The notes below the pieces were generated by a model, which worked only from the letters and a program-made list of their open reading frames with translations, made no database searches and was not told the DNA's origin. From the NCBI RefSeq assembly GCF_031834595.1, contig NZ_CP115541.1:558001-622000 (forward strand): a stretch of 64,000 bases of DNA, given 5' to 3'. This DNA is from Stenotrophomonas oahuensis (GTDB taxonomy: Bacteria; Pseudomonadota; Gammaproteobacteria; Xanthomonadales; Xanthomonadaceae). Below, piece by piece: positions 24,894 to 37,158 of the stretch. Made by a program: the position numbers and the translations under genes. Positions within the stretch are counted from its first letter, which is position 1; the number at the start of each line of letters is the position of its first letter.

Positions 24894-25774
24894 ATGACCG
24901 ACAAAGCAGTGCTCGGAATCCACAGCCAGATAGATCCACGCACCCAAGGATCATTCAATCAGTTCATTGATGGTCACGCCTGGTTGACCGTCTCCCGCAA
25001 TGGCCAAACCCAGTTCTATGGCCTTTGGCCCGACAACCACCCACTCACACCGGATAACGGGGCTGGCTCGGACATTCGTGTGGGCATGGAGGCCCGCTTC
25101 CGGCCTGACGCTTCCCGCTACTTTGCGCTGAACGAGGAGCAGGTTCACCATCTCGAAGCTGCATTGAGTGAGAACGTCGAGTGGGGTTACACCAACACCT
25201 GCGCATCGTGGGCCACAGATACGCTGCACAAGGTCACAGGCCAGAAACTGGAGGCCAGCGAGTTCGTACTCACCGACACCCCCAGGGAACTGATCGATGT
25301 CATCCGCAACGCGGAGCGGCTTCAGCCCTCCAGCCCGACGCGCCCGAATACTCCGCTGGAGGCCCCGCAGGAACCCTCCAGCGCACGATCACTGAGTGAT
25401 ATCTCCGAGCGGCTGCACCAGCAGGCCATTGACGGCGTCCATCGCTTGGATGCCAGCCTGGGCCGGGAGCCAGATGCGGCGAGCGAGCGGATGGCGGCCA
25501 GTCTGGCGCATCTGGCGCGATCCACCGGCTTCAGCCAGATCGATCACGTTCTGCTGGTCGACCCACCGATGCGACACCGGAATCGCAGAACGTGTTCATC
25601 GTGCAGGGAATGCTGGGTGAGGCGTCGCACCGGCGTGCGTACATGAGCGTACCGGGTGCCTTGCGTGAGCCGGCTGAGGACTCGCTGCAGAAGCTGCAGG
25701 ACCTGGATGCGACGCTGGCGGCGGAGCACGAGGCACGTGAGATGGGAATTGAGGTGGTTCGGCGGCGGGTGTGA
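24894..25774 (+). pseudogene. X-T4SS antibacterial effector with XVIPCD, frameshifted
   Basis: The first frame runs from ATG 24894 to 25646. The conserved C-terminal domain switches frame near 25560-25568, where one base is missing, and continues to 25774. Restoring one base gives about 293 residues. N-terminal domain (about 1-145): His28 in DGHAWL and Cys103 in TNTCASWA, the His-before-Cys order of permuted papain-fold amidases or peptidases. C-terminal part (about 175-293): the Xanthomonadales VirD4-interacting domain, ARSTGFSQIDHVLL, then across the shift NVFIVQGMLGEASHRRAYM and EDSLQKLQDLDATLAAEH. As sequenced, the product would lack most of the secretion signal. Either a real mutation or a sequencing error. 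Confidence 0.8.
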
Positions 25775-25981: not shown

Positions 25982-27679
25982 ATGCACCATGACGCCGACC
26001 TGATCAACATCGTTGCCGTTGGCCTGGGGCTCGCCTTCATCTTTGGCGCGCTGGCCAACAAGCTGCGTTTGTCTCCGCTGGTCGGTTATCTGGTTGCGGG
26101 CATCTGTGTAGGGCCATTCACCCCCGGCTTTGTCGCCGACCAGGCCCTGGCCAACCAGCTCGCCGAGCTCGGCGTGATGCTGCTGATGTTCGGGGTTGGC
26201 CTGCATTTCTCGCTGAAAGACCTGATGGCCGTGAAAGCCATCGCCATTCCTGGGGCCATCGGCCAGATTCTGGTCGCCACCCTGCTCGGCTGGGGCCTCG
26301 CGTGGTTGATGGGCTGGGAAACCCTGCATGGGGTCGTGTTCGGCTTCTCGCTCGCCACCGCCAGTACCGTCGTGCTGCTGCGCGCCATGGAAGAACGCCG
26401 CCTGCTGGAAACCCAGCGCGGCAAGATCGCCGTCGGCTGGCTGATCGTCGAAGACCTGGCCTGTGTGCTCGCCCTGGTGATGATGCCCGTGCTGGCCGGC
26501 GTGTTCGGCCCCGATGCCGCCAACCAGACCCACACCCTCGGCAGCGTGCTCGCCAGCATCGGCTGGACCTTCGTGCAGCTGGGCCTGTTCGTCGCCGTGA
26601 TGCTGGTGGTCGGCCGCCGGGTGATTCCCTGGATACTCGAGCGTATTGCCGGCACCGGCTCGCGTGAGCTGTTCACCCTCTCCGTGCTGGCCATTGCACT
26701 GGGCGTGGCATTCGGCTCGGCCATGCTGTTCGGTGTCTCGTTCGCGCTGGGCGCGTTCTTCGCCGGCATGCTGCTCAATGAATCCGAACTCAGCCACAAG
26801 GCCGCCAACGATTCGCTGCCGCTGCGCGACGCCTTCGCGGTGCTGTTCTTCGTCTCGGTCGGCATGCTGTTCAACCCCGCCATCCTGATCGAGCACCCGT
26901 GGCAGGTGCTGGCCACCGCCGCCATCATCATGTTCGGCAAGTCCGCCGCTGCGTTCTTCATCGTGCGCGCGTTCGGCCACCCCAATGGCACCGCGCTGAC
27001 CATCTCCGCCAGCCTGGCGCAGATCGGCGAGTTCGCCTTCATCATCGCCGGCCTCGGCGTCAGCCTGCAGATTCTGCCGCCCACCGGGCAGGCCCTGGTG
27101 CTGGCCGGTGCGCTGATCTCGATCATGCTCAACCCGGTGGTGTTCGGCCTGCTCGATCGTTGGCTGGCCAAGCACCAGGAAACGATGCCGCAGGCGGTGG
27201 AAACCGAACTGCCGCCCGGCCCGTCGCTGGACCTGCACGACCATGCCATCGTGATCGGCTATGGCCGGGTGGGCAGCGCGCTGGCCCAGGTGCTGCGCGA
27301 ACGCGGCGTGCCGGTGCTGGTCATTGACGACAACAAGGAGCACGTCGCCGAGGCGCACGCTGCCGGCCTGCCCGGCATCCGTGGCAGTGCCGCTTCCGAC
27401 AAAGTACTGGCCGAAGCCCACCCGGAACGCGCCAAGATCGCCGTGCTGGCGATTCCGCAGCCGCTGGAAGCGGGTGAAACCCTGGCCAAGCTGCGTGCGC
27501 TCAACCCGGGCCTGACCCTGCTGGCACGCGCCCACAGCGACGCGGAAGTGAAGCACCTGCTGGAGCACGGTGCCGATGGCACGGTGATGGCCGAACGCGA
27601 ACTGGCGTATTCCCTGGCGGAAATGGTCATGGCCACCCCGCCCTACCGCACGCTGGGCAAACACCTGCCGGTAGTGTGA
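25982..27679 (+). CDS. ybaL: YbaL-type cation:proton antiporter (Kef family)
   Basis: 565 residues, CPA2 family inner-membrane protein. About 12-13 transmembrane segments (residues 5-395) with LRLSPLVGYLVAGICVGPFT, LMFGVGLHFSLKDLMAVKAI and QIGEFAFIIAGLG. Then a cytosolic NAD-binding TrkA-N/RCK domain (about 420-540) opening with HAIVIGYGRVGSALAQ. The N-terminus (MHHDADLINI) and the run KAIAIPGAIGQI match E. coli YbaL rather than KefB/KefC. Likely potassium/proton exchange. It appears to be a single-gene unit. Confidence 0.9.
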   Translation: MHHDADLINIVAVGLGLAFIFGALANKLRLSPLVGYLVAGICVGPFTPGFVADQALANQLAELGVMLLMFGVGLHFSLKDLMAVKAIAIPGAIGQILVATLLGWGLAWLMGWETLHGVVFGFSLATASTVVLLRAMEERRLLETQRGKIAVGWLIVEDLACVLALVMMPVLAGVFGPDAANQTHTLGSVLASIGWTFVQLGLFVAVMLVVGRRVIPWILERIAGTGSRELFTLSVLAIALGVAFGSAMLFGVSFALGAFFAGMLLNESELSHKAANDSLPLRDAFAVLFFVSVGMLFNPAILIEHPWQVLATAAIIMFGKSAAAFFIVRAFGHPNGTALTISASLAQIGEFAFIIAGLGVSLQILPPTGQALVLAGALISIMLNPVVFGLLDRWLAKHQETMPQAVETELPPGPSLDLHDHAIVIGYGRVGSALAQVLRERGVPVLVIDDNKEHVAEAHAAGLPGIRGSAASDKVLAEAHPERAKIAVLAIPQPLEAGETLAKLRALNPGLTLLARAHSDAEVKHLLEHGADGTVMAERELAYSLAEMVMATPPYRTLGKHLPVV

Positions 27680-27776: not shown

Positions 27777-29279
27777 ATGCCCCAGGACATCGCCAACGCC
27801 GCCCGTGTTCAAGGCCGCTTCCACACCCGGATGGCGCAGCGTCAACCGGCGACTGCATCTTCGCAACGCCTGTCCCACGGACTGAACGGGCGCGGTCCGC
27901 TGCACATCCGCAACCGGTATGACTGCGTTGTGGCCGGTCTGCTGCTCAGCGCGGCATTGTCCCAGCTGCGCATGCCCGGCGGCACCACGACTGAATCCGG
28001 TGCGGTGCCGCGGGCAACCGGTCATTTGCGGCCCTCACTACACAACGTAGGCAACCGGGGAGTCCAGCAGGTTCCGCCCGCTGCGCACTGGCCCCCCGGT
28101 GCCCACGCACTGGCCATTCCGATGGGCATGGACTGGATGGGCGGGCTGGCGGAACTGCTGGGCACGCAGATCAGCGCCGAGCGGGCCGCGCTGGAGCTGG
28201 ACATCGCCGCCATTGCCGACGCCACCCGCACTGCCCAGGCCCAGCCGGGCAGCATTGTCGCCAAGCGCGAAGCGACCAACCGTGCGCGGCAGGACAGCAT
28301 CGCCCAGCAGTTTGAAAGCGAGGGGTTTGCGGTGGAGAGACTACCCTTCAACCTCACCACGCACACGCTGTTCAGCCATCCCTACCGCACCAGCGGGCAG
28401 AACCTGCGGGTCACGCTGTGCGGTCGCGAGCCGGTGCAGCGCACCTTGATGGTGCTGGCCCATGGCGACGTCGCCGGTGCCGAGATCGGCTCCACCGGCA
28501 GTCTCGACAATGGCGTCGGGGTCGGCCTGCTGCTGGCCCTGGCACGTCACCTGGAACACACCGGACTGCCGGACGGCACGCGCGTGCAACTGCTGGTCAC
28601 CGACAAGGAGGAAGCGGGATTGAAGGGGGCGAAAGCCTACGTCCGCGATTGTCTGGCCGCCGCGGGTTGCCCGGATGTTGCACTTAACTTGAACATTCTT
28701 GGCTACGGCGATGGGATCAGCGTCTCCGGCTCGACAGACCATGCGTGGTTCGGGGATGGTGATTCGCTTCTCGCCAACGGCACGGCCTCCGTAACGCCTG
28801 CCGAGGCACAGCTGGAGCAACTGCTGCGCGCGGCGGCCGCTGACGTCGGCATGCAGGTGCACGCCACACCCGGCTGGACGCTGCAGTCCGACCATGTGGC
28901 CTTCCAGCGCGCCGGGCTGGCCGCGCTGGGTCTGAGCGGAATGGACGCAGCCGATGTCGCGCCCGAGCGAGCACTGCAGGTCGCACGCGCCCGCTATCTG
29001 CAAGCCGAATCACGACTCAGCCCCAGCCGGTATGACGCCTACCTTGCAGGCACCTTGAACCAGACCGAATCGGTTGCCATGGAGTGCGACATCCAGGCGT
29101 CCGACACCGCCGCACTGGAATACCAGGCACTACCGCAATCGCACCGCCAGCGGCGCATCCACACCGCGGCTGATCAACCCGAGCACGTGGATATCCGCCA
29201 AGCGCTGGCCACGCTTGATGTGGTGCGTCGCACAGTCGACGCGTGGCTGGCGCTGCCTGCGGCGCGCGGCGGTGCTTAG
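27777..29279 (+). CDS. M28-family zinc aminopeptidase-like protein with unusual N-terminal module
   Basis: 500 residues; AGAAGG lies 7 bp before the ATG. Residues 1-70 form a polar segment with RVQGRF (10-15) and PLHIRN (41-46), then a hydrophobic stretch (50-65). The catalytic part (about 205-430) has the M28 zinc-site residues: His229 and Asp231 (LAHGDV), Asp244 (SLDNG), Glu278-Glu279 (DKEEAG), Asp312 (GYGD) and His373 (QSDHVAF). It is therefore probably an active exopeptidase. No classical signal peptide at the N-terminus. First gene of a three-peptidase cluster; 183 bp separate it from the next gene. Confidence 0.8.
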   Translation: MPQDIANAARVQGRFHTRMAQRQPATASSQRLSHGLNGRGPLHIRNRYDCVVAGLLLSAALSQLRMPGGTTTESGAVPRATGHLRPSLHNVGNRGVQQVPPAAHWPPGAHALAIPMGMDWMGGLAELLGTQISAERAALELDIAAIADATRTAQAQPGSIVAKREATNRARQDSIAQQFESEGFAVERLPFNLTTHTLFSHPYRTSGQNLRVTLCGREPVQRTLMVLAHGDVAGAEIGSTGSLDNGVGVGLLLALARHLEHTGLPDGTRVQLLVTDKEEAGLKGAKAYVRDCLAAAGCPDVALNLNILGYGDGISVSGSTDHAWFGDGDSLLANGTASVTPAEAQLEQLLRAAAADVGMQVHATPGWTLQSDHVAFQRAGLAALGLSGMDAADVAPERALQVARARYLQAESRLSPSRYDAYLAGTLNQTESVAMECDIQASDTAALEYQALPQSHRQRRIHTAADQPEHVDIRQALATLDVVRRTVDAWLALPAARGGA

Positions 29280-29462
29280 CGATTCCACCGCTCGCGGCCG
29301 GCTGCAAAAAGGCCGGCTACGACAGAGTTGTCCGCTGTCATACGCCGCCCAGACACCCTTCCTTCAAGGCGCGCACTTTTTTTACGCAGATTCCGATGTC
29401 CCTGCGCCAGCCCGGTCGGCAGCGTATGCGCGTCGCACTTCTTCCAACCTGATGAGGTCACC

Positions 29463-31382
29463 ATGCGTATCTCCCATGTAGATGCAGTACGTCGCAGCCA
29501 AGGCACGTTCGAGCGCAAAACCGGTGGTGTACAGCCCGGTCAACATCACAACGCACTGGGTCGCTTCGGCCCGCGCCCGACACCGCTACAGGTGCGCAAC
29601 GCGCTGCAGCTGTTCGCCTGCCTGCAGATGATTGGGCCCGCTCTGCGGCTGGCGCGACCTGCGCTCCCCGCAGCAGTGCAAGGCGTGCCGGGTGGCGTGC
29701 AGGCGCTGCCCGGGGCCCCCGACTATCGGATGTTGATGGAGCAGGACGCACCCGCCCCCTCGGCCCTGTCCGGTTCGCTGCACACGCTGGGGAACGGCGC
29801 GCTGGGGGTGTGCGTGGTGCAGCCTCGGCAGTGCGGTCGGGCGGTGCTGACCACCGGCGTGGGCATGGGCATCAGCATGCTGGGCAGCGCGATGACCGGT
29901 TTCGGGCTGGGCCGACTCACCGCGATGGACTCCGCTCCCGCTCCGGCCGAGGAAGCGCAGAGGTCACCGCAAGCGCTGCACGCCGACGAGGTACTGGCCC
30001 TGCTGCCACCGCAGGCGCAGACCGACGTGCTGGAGATCGTGCGCGAATGCCAGGGTGGCGAGGCGTGCGCCACACCGCGCATCCACGACGTGCTGGCACG
30101 CCTGCCCGCCGTCCAGCAGCGCGCCCTGCAGTGCCTGATGTCGGAATCACAGCTGCCCGCACTGCCAGAGCCCGATGCAGCCAGCTGGCCGCCCGGTGCG
30201 CAGGCACAGATTCCTGCCCTGGACTGGATGGTGCAGGCGGCCGAGCTGCTGGGTGGACTGGACCACGCCGAGCAACTGCAGATGCAACTGGACGTGGAGC
30301 AGATCAGCCAGGCCACGCTGGACGCCAAGCAGCACGCGGCATTGAATCGTCTCGGCCGCCGTTTCGACCCGGCCTATGAGCGCCACATCAACCAGGCGCG
30401 CAGGGCTGCCATCTGTGATCGGTTCGAACAGGACGGCTGGCAGCTGCAGGAACAGGCCTTCCTGATCAACGCCACCACCGACATGGGCGAGCCCGGCCTG
30501 CACAACGGCCGCAATCTGTGGCTGGAACTGGCTGGCCCCGGTCCCGCCGAACGCACTTTGATCCTGATGGCGCACGGCGACGTCGCGGGCATTGCGTCGC
30601 GCTCCAGCGGTGCGTGGGAAAACGCCTCGGGCGTGGCAGCGGTGCTCGCCCTGCTACGTCGTTTCCGCGACGAGGGCCTGCCAGCCGGCGCAAGGGTTCA
30701 GGTGCTGATCACCGACCTGCAGCAGCGCGGCATGATCGGAGCCAAGGCCTTCGTGCAGCAGTGTCTGGTCGACGGCACCTGTCCGGATCTGGCGGTGAAC
30801 CTGGATCGTCTGGGCTGGGGCAACGCACTGGCGCTCAGCGGTACCGATCGCCATGCACTGGTCAGCGAGGCACTTGACTTCCCCGAGCAGCGCAGCGCAC
30901 GCGCCGTGACCGCGCTGGAATCCAGTTTCGCCGAGCAGATGCGTGCGGCTGCGCCTCGCTTCGGATTGCGCTTGCCCGACACAGCGGCCTGGCGGCTGCC
31001 GTCGGACCAGGTCGCCCTGCAGCGCGAAGGCGTCGCCGCACTGGGCGTCACCCAGACCACCGCCGGCGAGATGGAACACGACATACGCTTCTTCGAGGCC
31101 CGCGAGCACATGCTGGCCGCCGAAGCTGCGGTCGACTGGGCCCACTACCCGGAGTACAACGCGCGACAGCTTGAACCGCAGGAACAGCGGGCCTTCCGCC
31201 GCCAGCTGGATGCCTGGCGCAACGCGCGCAATGACTTTGGCGCGGTAGGCCTGCCACGCGCGATGCGCGTACCCAACAGCGCGGAAGACCAGCCGGACCA
31301 GGTCGATGCCCGCACCGCGCTGCGCGTGGTGGATACCGTGCATGCTGCCGCACAGGTCTGGCTGCGCCAGCCGGCCGCCTGA
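29463..31382 (+). CDS. M28-like pseudoenzyme paralogue
   Basis: 639 residues from ATG 29463 (GAGG upstream; a longer reading from 29328 lacks similarity to its neighbours). Residues 1-70 repeat the module of the preceding gene (RSQGTF at 11-16, PLQVRN at 41-46). A second module has CVVQPRQC (117-124) followed by a Gly-rich hydrophobic segment (about 128-150). The M28-like part (about 345-600) aligns with the preceding protein, but the zinc-site residues are changed: His371 stays, while the other positions read Glu386, Gln420-Gln421, Asn454 and Gln516. I infer no zinc binding or catalysis. It may bind peptide, regulate its partner or act as a scaffold. Confidence 0.75.
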   Translation: MRISHVDAVRRSQGTFERKTGGVQPGQHHNALGRFGPRPTPLQVRNALQLFACLQMIGPALRLARPALPAAVQGVPGGVQALPGAPDYRMLMEQDAPAPSALSGSLHTLGNGALGVCVVQPRQCGRAVLTTGVGMGISMLGSAMTGFGLGRLTAMDSAPAPAEEAQRSPQALHADEVLALLPPQAQTDVLEIVRECQGGEACATPRIHDVLARLPAVQQRALQCLMSESQLPALPEPDAASWPPGAQAQIPALDWMVQAAELLGGLDHAEQLQMQLDVEQISQATLDAKQHAALNRLGRRFDPAYERHINQARRAAICDRFEQDGWQLQEQAFLINATTDMGEPGLHNGRNLWLELAGPGPAERTLILMAHGDVAGIASRSSGAWENASGVAAVLALLRRFRDEGLPAGARVQVLITDLQQRGMIGAKAFVQQCLVDGTCPDLAVNLDRLGWGNALALSGTDRHALVSEALDFPEQRSARAVTALESSFAEQMRAAAPRFGLRLPDTAAWRLPSDQVALQREGVAALGVTQTTAGEMEHDIRFFEAREHMLAAEAAVDWAHYPEYNARQLEPQEQRAFRRQLDAWRNARNDFGAVGLPRAMRVPNSAEDQPDQVDARTALRVVDTVHAAAQVWLRQPAA

Positions 31383-31394
31383 CCGGCCTGCACC

Positions 31395-33821
31395 ATGCGC
31401 ACCGAAATCGTAAGCCAGCAACGCAGGGTTCAAGGACAGTTCGAACGCGCGCTACGCGGCCGCCAGCCGCCGCAGGCGCATGGGCAGGCGCAGCACCCTG
31501 GAGGGCATCTGCCGGTACTGCACGTTCGCAATGTTGCCCAGGCCGTCACCGTCGGCCTGCTGCTGGGCACGATGCTGCCGGGCGCGCAAGCCAGCACGCC
31601 GGGCAGCGGCTACACCGCGGTCAATCTCGACGTGCCGCTGCAGGCCGCCAGCACTGCAGCGGCAGGGTGTCTGGCGCGCCCGGCAAGCTGCCCACAGATG
31701 CTGATGGGTGCCAGTCTGGTCGCCGTGGGCAGCCTGACGGCGGGCGCGTGGATCGGCTGGCAGGCGCGGAGTCAGCATGCCGGGGATCCCTGCATTGCGG
31801 CGCTCTCGGCAGCGGCACGAGGTTCCGAAGCGGCGCATCAGCTGCGCAATCAGAGCGCATCGCTGGACGCCCCCATCACGCTGGGTTTCCGTGCCACCCA
31901 ACTGGATTCCGCACGTGATCCCTGCGTGTCGCTGTACGACCACGTCAACGGTCGCTGGGCGAACACTACCGCGCTGGCCGACAACCAGAGCCGCTGGCAT
32001 ATCTCCAACGCGCTGGAGCATCGCGGGCGCACCCAACAGCGGGCACTGGCCGAGCAGCTGGCGACGCTGCCCGCGCCCACGCCCGCGCAACGGGTGGTCG
32101 CCGACCTGTGGACCAGTGGCATGGACGAAAGCCACATCAACAGCGACCGCCTGCGCCCACTGCGTGGCGAGCTGGCCGCCATTGACGCACTGACCTCGCC
32201 GCAGGACATCGAAAAGCACCTGTACCTGCTCACCCTGAAAGGCCGCAATCCGGTGTTTGGTGTGGTGGTCGAACCGGACATGGGCAATCGCAGCACGCAG
32301 ATCGCCTATGCCTATCAAGGCGGGCTGGGCTTACCGTCGGCCGCGCACTACCTGTCCGCACGACAGGCCGCGCTGCACCGTGACTACCGCGCGTACATTG
32401 CCGCACTACTGGAACTGTCGGGCACACCTGCGGACCAGGCGCACAACGACGCGGTCGCCGTGTTCGCACTCGAGCAGCGTCTGGCCACCGCATCCACTTC
32501 GCGGGCGGAACTGCGCGACAATCTCGCCGAAACCTACAATCCCATGCGCGCCGCAGAGGCCGACGTGCTCACCCCGAACTTCCGTTGGAGCGGATTGTTC
32601 GAGTCACTGGGCGCGGATCCTTCCATCAGGTTTTCTTTGGCCACGCCCGGCTTCCACCGTGAAGTGAGCGCGGCACTGTCCGACACCGACGTGGCCACCT
32701 GGCGCACCTACCTGCGCTTCCACTGCCTGGATACGGCCAGCCCCCATCTGGATGACCGCTTCGTGCAGACCATGCATGACTTCCAACAGCGCCTGCTCGG
32801 TGTGAACCAGACCCTGGCACCGCGCTGGCAGCGGGTGCTGGGCAGCATCGATGCGTACGCGGGGGACGCGTTGGGCGAGGCTTACGTCGGCGCACACTTC
32901 CCTGCGGAGGTTCGTGGCCGGATCAGCCAGATGGTCGAGCAGATGCGCACGGTGTTGAAGCGGCGGCTGGCGACCGCGCTGTGGCTGGACCCGGACACCC
33001 GGGTCACCGCGCAGGCCAAGGCCGACCTGCTCAACCCGCGCATTGGTCATCCCGACCAATGGCCGGACTGGTCGGAACTGCGCACCGAGCGCTGCGGCTA
33101 TCTGCGCAACCTGCGGCTGCTGCGGACGTTCCAGCAGCGGTTGGATCTGGCACGGATCGGGCAGCCGCTGGACGCCCAGCGCTGGCGGATCAGCGCTCAT
33201 TCGGTGAACGCGTACTTTGACGTGATGAACAACGACATGGGCTTCCCGGCCGGGCTCCTGCAGCCGCCCATCTTCGATCCCGAAGCCGATCACGCGCTCA
33301 ATTACGGGGCCATCGGGGTGATCATCGGCCATGAAATGAGCCATGCGTTCTCGGCCGAAACCAGCCAGTTCGCGCTCAACGGCCAACTGCAGCACTGGTG
33401 GACGGAGGACGACCGTGCGCGCTACCAGGACCTGTCGCGCCGCCTGGCGCTGCAGTACGACCAGCAGCGCATCGAAGGCCTGGCGGTCAACGGCACGCTG
33501 ACCGCGAACGAGAACATGGCTGATCTGGGCGGTCTGATGCTGGCGCTGGAGGCACTGCGGGAGCAGAGCGGCGCGGCGTCAGACCCGATGATCGACGGGC
33601 TCAGCCGCGAGCAGCGCTTCTTCATCAGTTGGGCGCATACCAACCGCCAACTGCAGACACCACAGCGGCTGCGCCTGGAACTGGCCGCCAATCCGCACAG
33701 CTTTGGGGCACCGCGCACGGATGTCGCCGCCTCCAACCTGCCGGCCTATGCCGCGGCGTTTGACTGCCCGCCCGGGAGCGCGATGGCACGTTCTGGCGAA
33801 CAGCAAGTAGCCTACCTGTAG
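31395..33821 (+). CDS. M13-family metallopeptidase with shared N-terminal module
   Basis: 808 residues, 12 bp after the preceding gene. Residues 1-70 again carry the cluster module (RRVQGQF at 10-16, VLHVRN at 41-46, then hydrophobic VTVGLLLGTML). Next comes CLARPASC (92-99) and a hydrophobic Gly-rich segment (102-122). The peptidase domain (about 170-800) is neprilysin/PepO-like: NAYFDVMNNDMGFPAGLLQP, zinc motif His646-Glu647-x-x-His650 (HEMSH) and third ligand Glu706 in ENMAD, so the active site looks intact. Two hydrophobic segments suggest membrane insertion or an unusual export route. Confidence 0.85.
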   Translation: MRTEIVSQQRRVQGQFERALRGRQPPQAHGQAQHPGGHLPVLHVRNVAQAVTVGLLLGTMLPGAQASTPGSGYTAVNLDVPLQAASTAAAGCLARPASCPQMLMGASLVAVGSLTAGAWIGWQARSQHAGDPCIAALSAAARGSEAAHQLRNQSASLDAPITLGFRATQLDSARDPCVSLYDHVNGRWANTTALADNQSRWHISNALEHRGRTQQRALAEQLATLPAPTPAQRVVADLWTSGMDESHINSDRLRPLRGELAAIDALTSPQDIEKHLYLLTLKGRNPVFGVVVEPDMGNRSTQIAYAYQGGLGLPSAAHYLSARQAALHRDYRAYIAALLELSGTPADQAHNDAVAVFALEQRLATASTSRAELRDNLAETYNPMRAAEADVLTPNFRWSGLFESLGADPSIRFSLATPGFHREVSAALSDTDVATWRTYLRFHCLDTASPHLDDRFVQTMHDFQQRLLGVNQTLAPRWQRVLGSIDAYAGDALGEAYVGAHFPAEVRGRISQMVEQMRTVLKRRLATALWLDPDTRVTAQAKADLLNPRIGHPDQWPDWSELRTERCGYLRNLRLLRTFQQRLDLARIGQPLDAQRWRISAHSVNAYFDVMNNDMGFPAGLLQPPIFDPEADHALNYGAIGVIIGHEMSHAFSAETSQFALNGQLQHWWTEDDRARYQDLSRRLALQYDQQRIEGLAVNGTLTANENMADLGGLMLALEALREQSGAASDPMIDGLSREQRFFISWAHTNRQLQTPQRLRLELAANPHSFGAPRTDVAASNLPAYAAAFDCPPGSAMARSGEQQVAYL

Positions 33822-33885: not shown

Positions 33886-34503
33886 ATGCACTCTGCCGTA
33901 CGCACCACCCTTGCAGGCCTGCTGCTGTTCGGCAGTTTCATGGCCAAGGCCGATGTTTCCACCGGGAGCGGCACCCTGAATCTTCAGGTTGAACGACTCG
34001 CGTCGGAAGTCACGTTGAGTACCGATCAGCAGGAGGATGTCCGCTATGGCGGCATCACCTGGGGCCTGCATGGCAAGGAAATCGTTCTGGTGCAGGTCGA
34101 GCCACGCTTTGTGGACCTGGATTATGGCTTCACCACACGCTATGGATTCAGCCACTCCTTGCAGCTGCCCGCCGGGACCTACGCGGTGACCGTGGTGGGC
34201 TTGGAGCCGCGCCAAAGCTACAGCATCGAACGCCTGATGCACCGTGCAGCTTTCGTCAACAGCAAGATCCGCACCGTGACTATCGAAGCCGGCAAGACCA
34301 CGGGTATCCGCGTTGCCCCGGTGATTCCGGACGAGGACGCGACCAAGCCGTTCATTCCCACATTCCTGGCCAGCATCACCGCACCGGATGTCTCATTTGA
34401 GGACACCGACAAGAAGCAGGTGCCCAGCGCCATCAGCCTGCGCGGCCGGAGCTCGATTGCCTGGCCGGACTATCGCGGTGCGGTGAAGTTCGTGCCGCGT
34501 TGA
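33886..34503 (+). CDS. Secreted hypothetical protein
   Basis: 205 residues with a Sec signal peptide (MHSAVRTTLAGLLLFGSFMAKA). The mature part looks beta-sheet rich (EVTLSTDQQEDVRYGGITWG, LQLPAGTYAVTVVGLEP, VRTVTIEAGKTTGIRVAP) and may be an immunoglobulin-like or carbohydrate-binding fold. No cysteines in the mature region. It follows the M13 gene by 64 bp on the same strand and may belong to that unit. I do not recognise a family. Confidence 0.7.
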   Translation: MHSAVRTTLAGLLLFGSFMAKADVSTGSGTLNLQVERLASEVTLSTDQQEDVRYGGITWGLHGKEIVLVQVEPRFVDLDYGFTTRYGFSHSLQLPAGTYAVTVVGLEPRQSYSIERLMHRAAFVNSKIRTVTIEAGKTTGIRVAPVIPDEDATKPFIPTFLASITAPDVSFEDTDKKQVPSAISLRGRSSIAWPDYRGAVKFVPR

Positions 34504-34572: not shown

Positions 34573-37158
34573 TCAGCCTTTGGCGAAGATCAGCTTGCCG
34601 TCGGCGGCGTCCACCTTGATCACATCCCCGGTAGCGAAATCGCCCGACAGAATGCGCTGCGCCAGCGGGTTCTCAAGCTGCGCCTGTATCGCACGCTTGA
34701 GCGGACGTGCGCCATAGATCGGATCGAAGCCCACATTGCCCAGCAAGCCGAACGCGTCATCGCTGACCTCGATGCGCAGGCCCCGTTCGGCCAGCCGCTT
34801 TTCCAGGCCGTGCATCTGGATGCGCGCGATCTGCTTGATCTGCGCCTTGTCCAGCGGGTGGAACACCACGATGTCATCCAGCCGGTTGATGAACTCCGGA
34901 CGGAAGTGCGCCTGTACCACGCCCATCACGGCGGCCTTCATCTGCGTGTAGGCCTCCGGGCTGTCGTCGCTGCTCATGTCCTGGATCTGATGCGAGCCCA
35001 GGTTGGAGGTCATCACGATGACGGTGTTGCGGAAGTCCACTGTGCGGCCCTGGCCATCGGTCAGGCGACCGTCGTCCAGCACCTGCAGCAGGATGTTGAA
35101 CACATCGGTGTGTGCCTTCTCCACCTCATCCAGCAGAATCAGCGAATACGGGCGACGGCGCACCGCCTCGGTGAGGTAGCCACCTTCCTCGTAGCCCACG
35201 TAGCCCGGGGGCGCACCGATCAGGCGCGCCACGCTGTGCTTCTCCATGAACTCGCTCATGTCGATGCGGATCATGGCGTCGCTGCTGTCGAACAGGAATT
35301 CGGCCAGCGACTTGCACAGCTCGGTCTTGCCTACACCGGTGGGGCCGAGGAACAGGAACGAGCCGCTCGGACGGTTCGGGTCGGACAGACCCGCGCGCGA
35401 GCGGCGCACTGCGTCGGAGACGACCTTGATCGCCTCTTCCTGGCCGACTACGCGTTCGTGCAGCACATCTTCCATGCGCAGCAGCTTCTCGCGCTCACCT
35501 TCCAGCATGCGGTTGACCGGAATGCCGGTCCAGCGTGAGACCACCTCGGCGATTTCCTCGGCGGTCACCCGGTCCTGCACCAGCTTGAACTCGGTGGCCT
35601 CCGCTTCCTGCGCGGCGGCCAGCTGCTTCTCTAGTTGCGGCAACTGCCCATACTGCAGCTCGCTCATGCGGCCGAAGTCCTGGCGGCGCTGGGCCGATTC
35701 CAGTTCCAGCTTCACCTGCTCGATCTGTTCCTTGATCTTGGTGGTGCCCTGCAGGGCGGCCTTCTCCGACTTCCAGATTTCATCCAGGTCGGAGAACTCC
35801 CGCTCCAGGGCGTCGATGTCGGTTTCCAGATCCGCCAGACGCTGGCGCGAGGCGTCGTCCTTTTCCTTCTTCAGCATCTCGCGCTGGATCTTCAGCTGGA
35901 TCAGGCGACGCTCCAAGCGGTCCAGTTCTTCCGGCTTGGAGTCGATCTCCATGCGGATGCGCGACGCGGCCTCGTCCATCAGGTCGATGGCCTTGTCCGG
36001 CAGCTGGCGGTCGGCAATGTAGCGGTGCGACAGCGTCGCGGCCGCCACAATCGCCGGGTCGGTGATCTCCACGCCGTGGTGCACCGCGTACTTTTCTTTC
36101 AACCCACGCAGGATGGCGATGGTGTCTTCGACGCTGGGCTCGCCCACGAACACCTTCTGGAAACGGCGTTCCAGCGCGGCGTCCTTTTCGATGTACTTGC
36201 GGTACTCGTCCAGCGTGGTCGCACCCACGCAATGCAGTTCGCCACGGGCCAGCGCCGGCTTGAGCATGTTGCCGGCGTCCATCGCGCCGTCCGCCTTGCC
36301 CGCACCGACCATGGTGTGCAGCTCATCGATGAACAGAATGATCTGGCCTTCGCTCTTGGCCAGGTCGTTGAGCACGCCCTTCAGTCGTTCTTCGAACTCA
36401 CCACGGAACTTGGCCCCCGCGATCAGCGCGCCCATGTCCAGCGACAGCACACGCTTGCCGCGCAGGCCTTCGGGCACTTCGTCGTTGATGATGCGCTGGG
36501 CCAGACCTTCCACAATCGCGGTCTTGCCCACGCCGGGTTCGCCGATCAGCACCGGGTTGTTCTTGGTCCGGCGCTGCAGCACCTGGATGGTGCGGCGGAT
36601 CTCCTCGTCACGGCCGATCACCGGATCGAGCTTGCCGCTCTCGGCACGCGCGGTCAGGTCGATGGTGTACTTCTCCAGCGCCTGGCGCTGGTCTTCGGCG
36701 TTTTCCGACTGCACGCTTTCACCGCCGCGGATCTTGTCGATGGCCGCGGTTACGCGGGCCTTGTCGGCCCCGGCGGCGCGCAGGGCCATGCCCAGGGTGC
36801 CGCTGTCTTCCAGCGCGGCCAGCACGAACCACTCGCTGGCAATGAAGGCATCGCCATGCTGCTGGGCCAGCTTGTCGGTGGCGTTGAGCAGGCGGTTCAG
36901 GTCGTTGCCCATCGACAGGTTGCCGGCCTGGCCGGTCACCTTGGGCAGCGCGTCCAGCGCCTCGGTCAGGCGCTCGCGCAGCACCGGCACGTTGACGCCG
37001 GCCTGCGACAGCAGCGGGCGCGTGCTGCCGCCCTGCTGGTCGAGCAGCGCGGTGAACACGTGCACGGGTTCAAGGATGGAGTGGTCGCGGCCCACGGCCA
37101 GCGACTGCGCGTCGGCCAGCGCCTGCTGGAAACGCGAGGTGAGCTTGTCCATTCGCAT
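34573..37158 (-). CDS. clpB: ATP-dependent protein disaggregase ClpB
   Basis: 861 residues, full length. Hexameric HSP100 that resolubilises aggregated proteins with DnaK. N-terminal repeat domain ([20 protein letters not shown]), first AAA+ module (Walker A GEPGVGKT, Walker [16 protein letters not shown]), the long ClpB middle coiled coil (about 405-530), second AAA+ module (Walker A GPTGVGKT, then [11 protein letters not shown]) and the C-terminal D2-small domain. GAGG lies 7 bp before the start codon. A sigma-32 promoter is visible upstream, so heat induction is expected. Confidence 0.97.

Follow-up and report, generated by a model that had tools for sequence, protein, structure and literature searches.

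Why should three adjacent genes whose products carry unrelated peptidase folds all begin with the same stretch of protein? The question arises from a window of 64,000 nucleotides of Stenotrophomonas oahuensis (contig NZ_CP115541.1, positions 558,001 to 622,000; G000:C1:558001-622000, with G000 denoting the window genome), which was compared with same-genus relatives, that is, other Stenotrophomonas. Here, two M28 family genes, M28-A (27777..29279, + strand, 500 residues) and M28-B (29463..31382, + strand, 639 residues), are followed consecutively by the gene for an M13 zinc endopeptidase (31395..33821, + strand, 808 residues). All three genes are where an earlier reading of the DNA (the original prediction) had placed them, and its central claim, an N-terminal module common to the three proteins but attached to unrelated catalytic folds, is borne out.

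When profiles that included orthologues were compared, the M28 and M13 modules matched with an HHalign probability of 99.8% (E-value 2e-29), whereas the catalytic parts of M28 and M13 gave 0.08% and are thus unrelated. Confining the comparison to the first 75 residues and leaving out the M13 protein of genome G029 gave 98.6% (E 7.6e-15). A chance test by local alignment of the first 60 residues against 5000 shuffles points the same way: no shuffle reached the score of M28-A against M13 or that of M28-B against M13 (0/5000 in each case), while the start of M28-A against that of M28-B was equalled by 423/5000 and is not significant on its own. In the window, the module of M28-B (29463..29933, +; module profile E 1.8e-39) and that of the M13 protein (31395..31778, +; Cys pair at residues 92 and 99) have both halves. 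M28-A has the first half only (27777..28001, +, approximately residues 1-75, by profile and alignment comparison).

The module spans approximately 130-170 residues in most copies. A polar, arginine-rich segment (RRxQGxF...L-x-V-R-N) followed by a signal-peptide-like hydrophobic stretch opens it in 25 proteins from 13 genomes, and the second half, consisting of a linker that is usually LPGAxA-like, two Cys in a Cx6C arrangement, and another hydrophobic stretch, mostly rich in Gly and Ala, is present in 24 of the 25. The exception is M28-A, the odd one of the window, which has neither the Cys pair, nor the second hydrophobic segment, nor the helical region that follows the module. The original prediction had recognised the N-terminal motifs and the first hydrophobic stretch; the true module is about twice as long. 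Its claim of fixed motif positions is right for L-[HQ]-[IV]-R-N, at residues 42-46 in all three window proteins, and too strict for the others, as RxQGxF lies at 11-16 in M28-B and M13 but at 10-15 in M28-A, and the Q-P pair at 23-24 or 24-25, M28-A again being the one displaced by one residue. The M13 protein of G029 (L083:11723-14374) has an insertion of approximately 55 residues before the hydrophobic core, which is absent from the other 13 modules of the same alignment.

An alignment of 22 modules (M28-A, G015, and G446 left out) has five invariant positions (22/22 each), namely the starting Met, the linker Pro, the two Cys, and a Pro lying between these Cys; the other kept positions are an Arg (21), the Gly of QG (20), the Leu of LxVRN (20), and the Arg between the Cys residues (17). 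This conservation is found in modules that are only 20-40% identical between M28 and M13 proteins. Each module start was placed at the aligned Met, which is followed by Pro in 17/22, and the comparison covers the sequence from there on; that the same Met lines up in orthologues speaks against mis-called starts. For M28-B, the start is most likely the ATG at 29463, the longest open reading frame beginning with a TTG at 29328. Searches of Pfam and NCBIfam with the module gave only single chance-level matches (E 0.027 or worse), and a search of solved structures (PDB) gave only a designed protein at E 0.027, which we take as chance. The module is a domain family without a Pfam or NCBIfam match.

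How widely is the module used? The profile search did find further members, with strong matches (best E 2.2e-17 or better) in 13/91 Stenotrophomonas genomes. A sample of the family gave matches in 6/395 genomes and 1/54 genera, with no strong match in any other genus of that sample, and a sample of the order gave matches in 7/398 genomes, one of them a weak match in another genus (G565, E 5e-4). Of the 25 proteins with strong matches, 24 belong to the M28 or M13 families and are encoded at a single locus next to ybaL; the remaining copy, in G446, also adjoins ybaL, and its contig ends before any catalytic part. Named carriers of the M28 family include S. rhizophila DE0483, sp. VV52, sp. PS02289, S. 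chelatiphaga, S. tumulicola, and S. pennii, to which UBA4619, an assembly labelled S. maltophilia, is added. A common sorting, anchoring or assembly signal, as the original prediction put it, is still the likeliest reading of the module, which has export-like features; a general sorting system is rejected, since no other C-terminal domain was found behind a strong match and, in the genomes searched, the strong matches are confined to one locus in one genus. Weak matches (best E 1.8e-5 to 0.009) are the sole matches in 15/28 genomes with matches, and G252 has one besides its strong ones. Two were looked at: L136 is, by eye, a protein rich in Ala and Gln that starts with what looks like an ordinary signal peptide and has an EF-hand-like end, and L135 looks like a spurious frame.

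In the window, the locus is flanked by a YbaL-family antiporter gene (25982..27679, +) and by clpB (34573..37158, -), both conserved anchors; all of the 12 other carrier loci have ybaL, and 10 have clpB, which is missing from two short contigs (L084 and L134). M28 and M13 occur together in 11/13 carriers, and the other two (G015 and G446) are interrupted by contig ends, G015 still showing an M13-type module up to its residue 24. Between ybaL and clpB of non-carriers, tblastn found no M28 or M13 of this kind in 8/8 loci. In a tree of ybaL built from 36 of the 89 genomes that have the gene (30 with loci plus six chosen), the 13 carriers form two carrier-only groups, one of nine (support 83/81) and one of four (96/92), the non-carriers near the latter being thinly sampled. 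In at least five non-carrier gaps (L167, L168, L169, L173, and L174), an O-acetylhomoserine sulfhydrylase-like gene, identified by eye, lies between ybaL and clpB. At E 1e-100, such a gene was found in 1/10 carriers searched and in 2/2 non-carriers; the carrier is G252, whose copy between M28 and M13 (L129:10362-11660) belongs to this family, and G015, outside that search, also has one beside its M28. Its presence in non-carrier gaps and its rarity in carriers suggest that the peptidases mostly occupy another gene's place.

What could the module do? Its most hydrophobic 15-residue window follows a net positive stretch and has a mean hydropathy of 1.13-2.35 across the 25 modules; since a best window is obtained for any sequence, it is these values that count and not the 25/25. 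The window lies at approximately residues 40-66 (103-117 in the G029 M13 protein). The original prediction denied the proteins a classical signal peptide, correctly in that the core lies late, incorrectly in that a hydrophobic stretch after positive charge is present. A simple pattern places an AxA-like site after the core in 24/25 modules, which is weak evidence in an Ala-rich sequence. We suggest Sec export with an unusually long lead, to which the charge of the lead, the hydrophobic core, and the AxA-like sites all point. Signals for twin-arginine translocation (Tat) carry S/T-RR-x-FLK shortly before the hydrophobic core; RRxQGxF lies approximately 30 residues before the core and has no FLK pattern. 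The Cys pair kept in 22/22 modules, together with invariant Cys in the catalytic parts of both M28 and M13 proteins, fits an oxidising compartment. Two ordinary M13 paralogues of the genus start with lipoprotein-type exported N-termini, as marked by a lipobox; export thus seems usual for the M13 family in this genus.

We suggest, with a probability of about one half, that the module is an export-and-tether domain by which the M13 endopeptidase and its M28 partner, often degenerate, come to lie side by side in the envelope; that the proteins are exported, where they lie, and that they are tethered and work as partners are all inferred. A positively charged cytoplasmic lead of approximately 45 residues would precede a Sec-type hydrophobic core, and beyond the core would come the LPGAxA-like linker, the Cys-Cys loop, and the second, mostly Gly/Ala-rich hydrophobic segment, which could serve to anchor the proteins or to pair them. 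An M13 oligo-endopeptidase and an M28 protein would in this way be held close to each other at the periplasmic face of the envelope. The M13 protein would be the catalytic constant; its M28 partner, of aminopeptidase-like type, is without some catalytic residues in several lineages and may be a non-catalytic subunit. The substrates are presumably peptides, on which M13 and M28 enzymes usually act.

The catalytic sites show the asymmetry on which this division of roles draws. Both M13 domains of the window protein are far above the cut-off (PF05649 E 6e-83, PF01431 E 5e-53), and HExxH and the distal Glu are intact in it and in all of the 11 locus proteins compared, a set to which the M13 gene of G015 does not belong. 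The M28 domain is recognised by profile in M28-A (residues 209-485, 78.7 bits) and M28-B (54.9 bits; curated cut-off 21.3), and neither has the complete set of metal-binding and catalytic residues, whose roles we take to be those of the Streptomyces aminopeptidase. M28-A has Asn for one metal-binding Asp (one of six positions), and M28-B, with 4/6 replaced, is a pseudoenzyme. All six positions are intact in 6/13 M28 proteins, every one from the first clade; residues are lost in the other 7/13 (M28-A, M28-B, G003, G029, G202, G373, and G015), the last His being replaced by Asn in all four second-clade proteins and by Gln in that of G015. The M28 partner thus tends to lose catalytic residues and M13 does not.

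Comparison with known systems finds partial likenesses. The catalytic part of the M13 protein resembles the M13 peptidases PepO, Zmp1, and neprilysin in its HExxH and distal Glu, with PepO (9fma) and Zmp1 (3zuk) among its solved relatives; however, the alignments to these structures start no earlier than profile position 161, and the module has no counterpart in them. By profile, the M28 domain is shared with an autotransporter-domain protein (9oqa), YwaD (6hc6), an aminopeptidase (1cp7), and a bacterial leucyl aminopeptidase (3b3t), but these are distant (best PDB E 2.5e-6), and the locus proteins add the module and a helical region and have lost catalytic residues as described. One report describes YSIRK/GxxS signal peptides as a motif common to a set of Gram-positive surface proteins that directs the site of secretion (PMC5962339), and the module is similar in being an extended lead with a motif common to different proteins. 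It differs in its Gram-negative host, in its restriction to two protein families at one locus, in its extra Cys loop and second hydrophobic segment, and in its fast evolution. No match to such a signal was found in Pfam, which presumably holds a model for YSIRK. A second likeness is to the leaders of autotransporters and two-partner secretion proteins, for which another report gives, in a Gram-negative bacterium, a signal sequence of exceptional length at the N-terminus that precedes Sec export (PMC2805444). The module shares the exceptionally long lead before a hydrophobic core, but the C-terminal parts are peptidases here. Neither the module nor the three full proteins matched a translocator domain or a model of the extended signal peptide region (ESPR) of type V secretion, as these leaders are called, in Pfam or NCBIfam, the libraries presumably holding such models. 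A term search of the main text of a review on metallopeptidase pseudo-enzymes (PMC11266112) did not find M28, and no paper on this locus was among the literature matches listed.

Several observations weigh against an export-and-tether domain. With the membrane crossed by both hydrophobic segments, the catalytic domain would end on the cytoplasmic side again, so that one of the two is probably cleaved or non-spanning. M28-A does without the second half of the module. In 12/13 M13 comparisons, change is faster in the module than in the enzyme part, which is not how a strict address tag would behave. Finally, there is no signal of co-evolution between M28 and M13 modules in ten genomes, those of the same genome being no more alike than those of different genomes (598/720 permutations reached the observed value in one clade and 8/24 in the other).

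One rival explanation is a relic. The 5' part of one gene may long ago have been copied in front of its neighbour, so that both have a working export leader; it would do no more than an ordinary signal peptide with a linker, and its fast change would reflect relaxed constraint. The confinement of the module to adjacent genes at one locus, the loss of half of it in M28-A, and the few conserved positions left all agree with such an origin, and leaders and linkers usually change fast. Set against it are the invariant and near-invariant positions of the 22-module alignment, kept despite the low identity between M28 and M13 modules, and a break between module and enzyme in the M13 proteins of G002 and G252 (described below), which argues for recombination as well as relaxed constraint. 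We regard a relic as possible but somewhat unlikely.

The divergence of the locus raises a different possibility. Between G000 and G031, ybaL and clpB are 98-99% identical, with a synonymous divergence (dS) of 0.31-0.36, whereas M13 is 52% identical (dS 1.08) and the M28 proteins 38-42% (dS 1.3-1.5). Against G002 and G014, the flanks are 95-97% identical (dS 0.39-0.45), M13 is 50-52% (dS 0.97-1.02), and M28 is 36-45% (dS 1.05-1.46). The locus is hyper-divergent between near-identical flanks, with dS about two- to fourfold higher than in the flanks in these three comparisons; at fourfold sites, G000 and G031 differ at 124/244 in M13, 92/362 in ybaL, and 91/452 in clpB. The two ordinary M13 paralogues resemble the flanks in four of these genomes (92-98% identical, dS 0.18-0.29). 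In a tree of M13 proteins, the 11 locus proteins group together (100/100), and their tips reach 0.61, compared with 0.01-0.09 for the paralogues. Third-position GC is 0.78-0.81 in the window M28 and M13 genes and 0.86-0.87 in ybaL and clpB, and the weaker codon bias may add to their dS, a figure that covers window genes and not the paralogues. It is unusual for two unrelated peptidases with a private N-terminal domain to be approximately 50% identical amid near-identical flanks while two other exported M13 peptidases are so well kept, and the locus is a test case for what drives the diversity of exported proteases and for whether non-homologous enzymes can be assembled by a shared leader.

Such divergence could indicate a locus of conflict or recognition, at which exported peptidases, sometimes with an accessory protein of 205 residues, act against peptides, phages, rivals, or grazers, antagonistic co-evolution driving the exchange of alleles. 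The excess dS relative to flanks and paralogues, the mosaic alleles, and the accessory gene, which is 40-52% identical between carriers and present as tandem pairs in two of the three genomes that have it, all point in this direction. However, the ratio of nonsynonymous to synonymous divergence (dN/dS, worked out from computed rates) is raised in the locus proteins at about 0.1-0.7 but never exceeds 1, the closely related G014 and G440 show no excess divergence, and there is no obligatory immunity-like gene, the accessory gene being found in 3/91 Stenotrophomonas genomes (G000, G015, and G252, all module carriers). PADLOC gave no match for five window proteins, and a term search found neither M13 nor M28 in the main text of a study that lists 13 putative type VI effectors in S. 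rhizophila (PMC13340143). We consider this explanation unlikely.

Do module and enzyme have separate histories? We tested for a break in fourfold-site differences with 2000 shuffles. The M13 proteins of G002 and G252 are 88-100% identical in 50-residue windows after residue 200 and 42-66% before, with a break at residue 210 (49/88 against 50/345 sites different; 0/2000 shuffles); their enzyme part has a dS of 0.20, below the 0.30 of the flanks, and their ybaL and clpB show no break (186 and 857 of 2000). The M28 protein of G252 sides with G002 in residues 51-165 (86 against 31 sites) and with G015 in residues 211-640 (216 against 61), and is undecided in residues 1-50 (19 against 25) and 166-210 (18 against 17). 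In these two proteins, module and enzyme part are of different histories, with the switch near the domain boundary. Weaker signals come from M28 of G252/G015 (38/2000, break at residue 354, away from the module end) and M13 of G014/G312 (83/2000, residue 43). No significant break was found in M28 of G002/G252 (782), G014/G312 (269), and G014/G002 (622), or in M13 of G014/G002 (694) and G000/G031 (600); the tests left out M28 of G000/G031. A break is also seen in the flanking clpB of G000/G031 (11/2000), so that recombination has occurred outside the locus as well; in the remaining eight flank tests, 186 to 1788 of 2000 shuffles reached the observed value. With two weaker signals that break elsewhere, five pairs without signal, and the break in clpB, the claim of separate recombination rests on few clear cases. 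The most far-reaching reading is a polymorphic two-peptidase system of the Stenotrophomonas envelope, in which a recognition or anchoring domain is exchanged between alleles independently of the enzymes, M13 stays a working enzyme, M28 evolves into a pseudo-enzyme partner, and antagonism (peptide toxins, phages, rivals, or grazers) drives diversification; as a whole, it seems to us unlikely. An origin in a defence system, plasmid, or phage is rejected on the PADLOC result and on the lack of matches in a plasmid search with the M28-B module and in a phage search with M28-B, M13 not having been searched in either.

The accessory gene of the window (33886..34503, +) encodes a 205-residue protein with a start that, by eye, resembles a signal peptide and with no match in Pfam or NCBIfam; the 40-52% identity given above is to this copy. 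No tandem repeats were found, and the search for regulatory sites was uninformative (no sigma-70-like promoters; one terminator-like site against 2.9 expected). The C-terminal XVIPCD of X-Tfe type IV effectors is absent from the three peptidase proteins. Adjoining ybaL on its other side, an open reading frame of 250 residues (24894-25646, +) has a partial XVIPCD (profile positions 9-58 of 101) and resembles a type IV effector that is truncated or has degenerated. In G446 (L134), ybaL likewise adjoins a stretch 89% identical to it.

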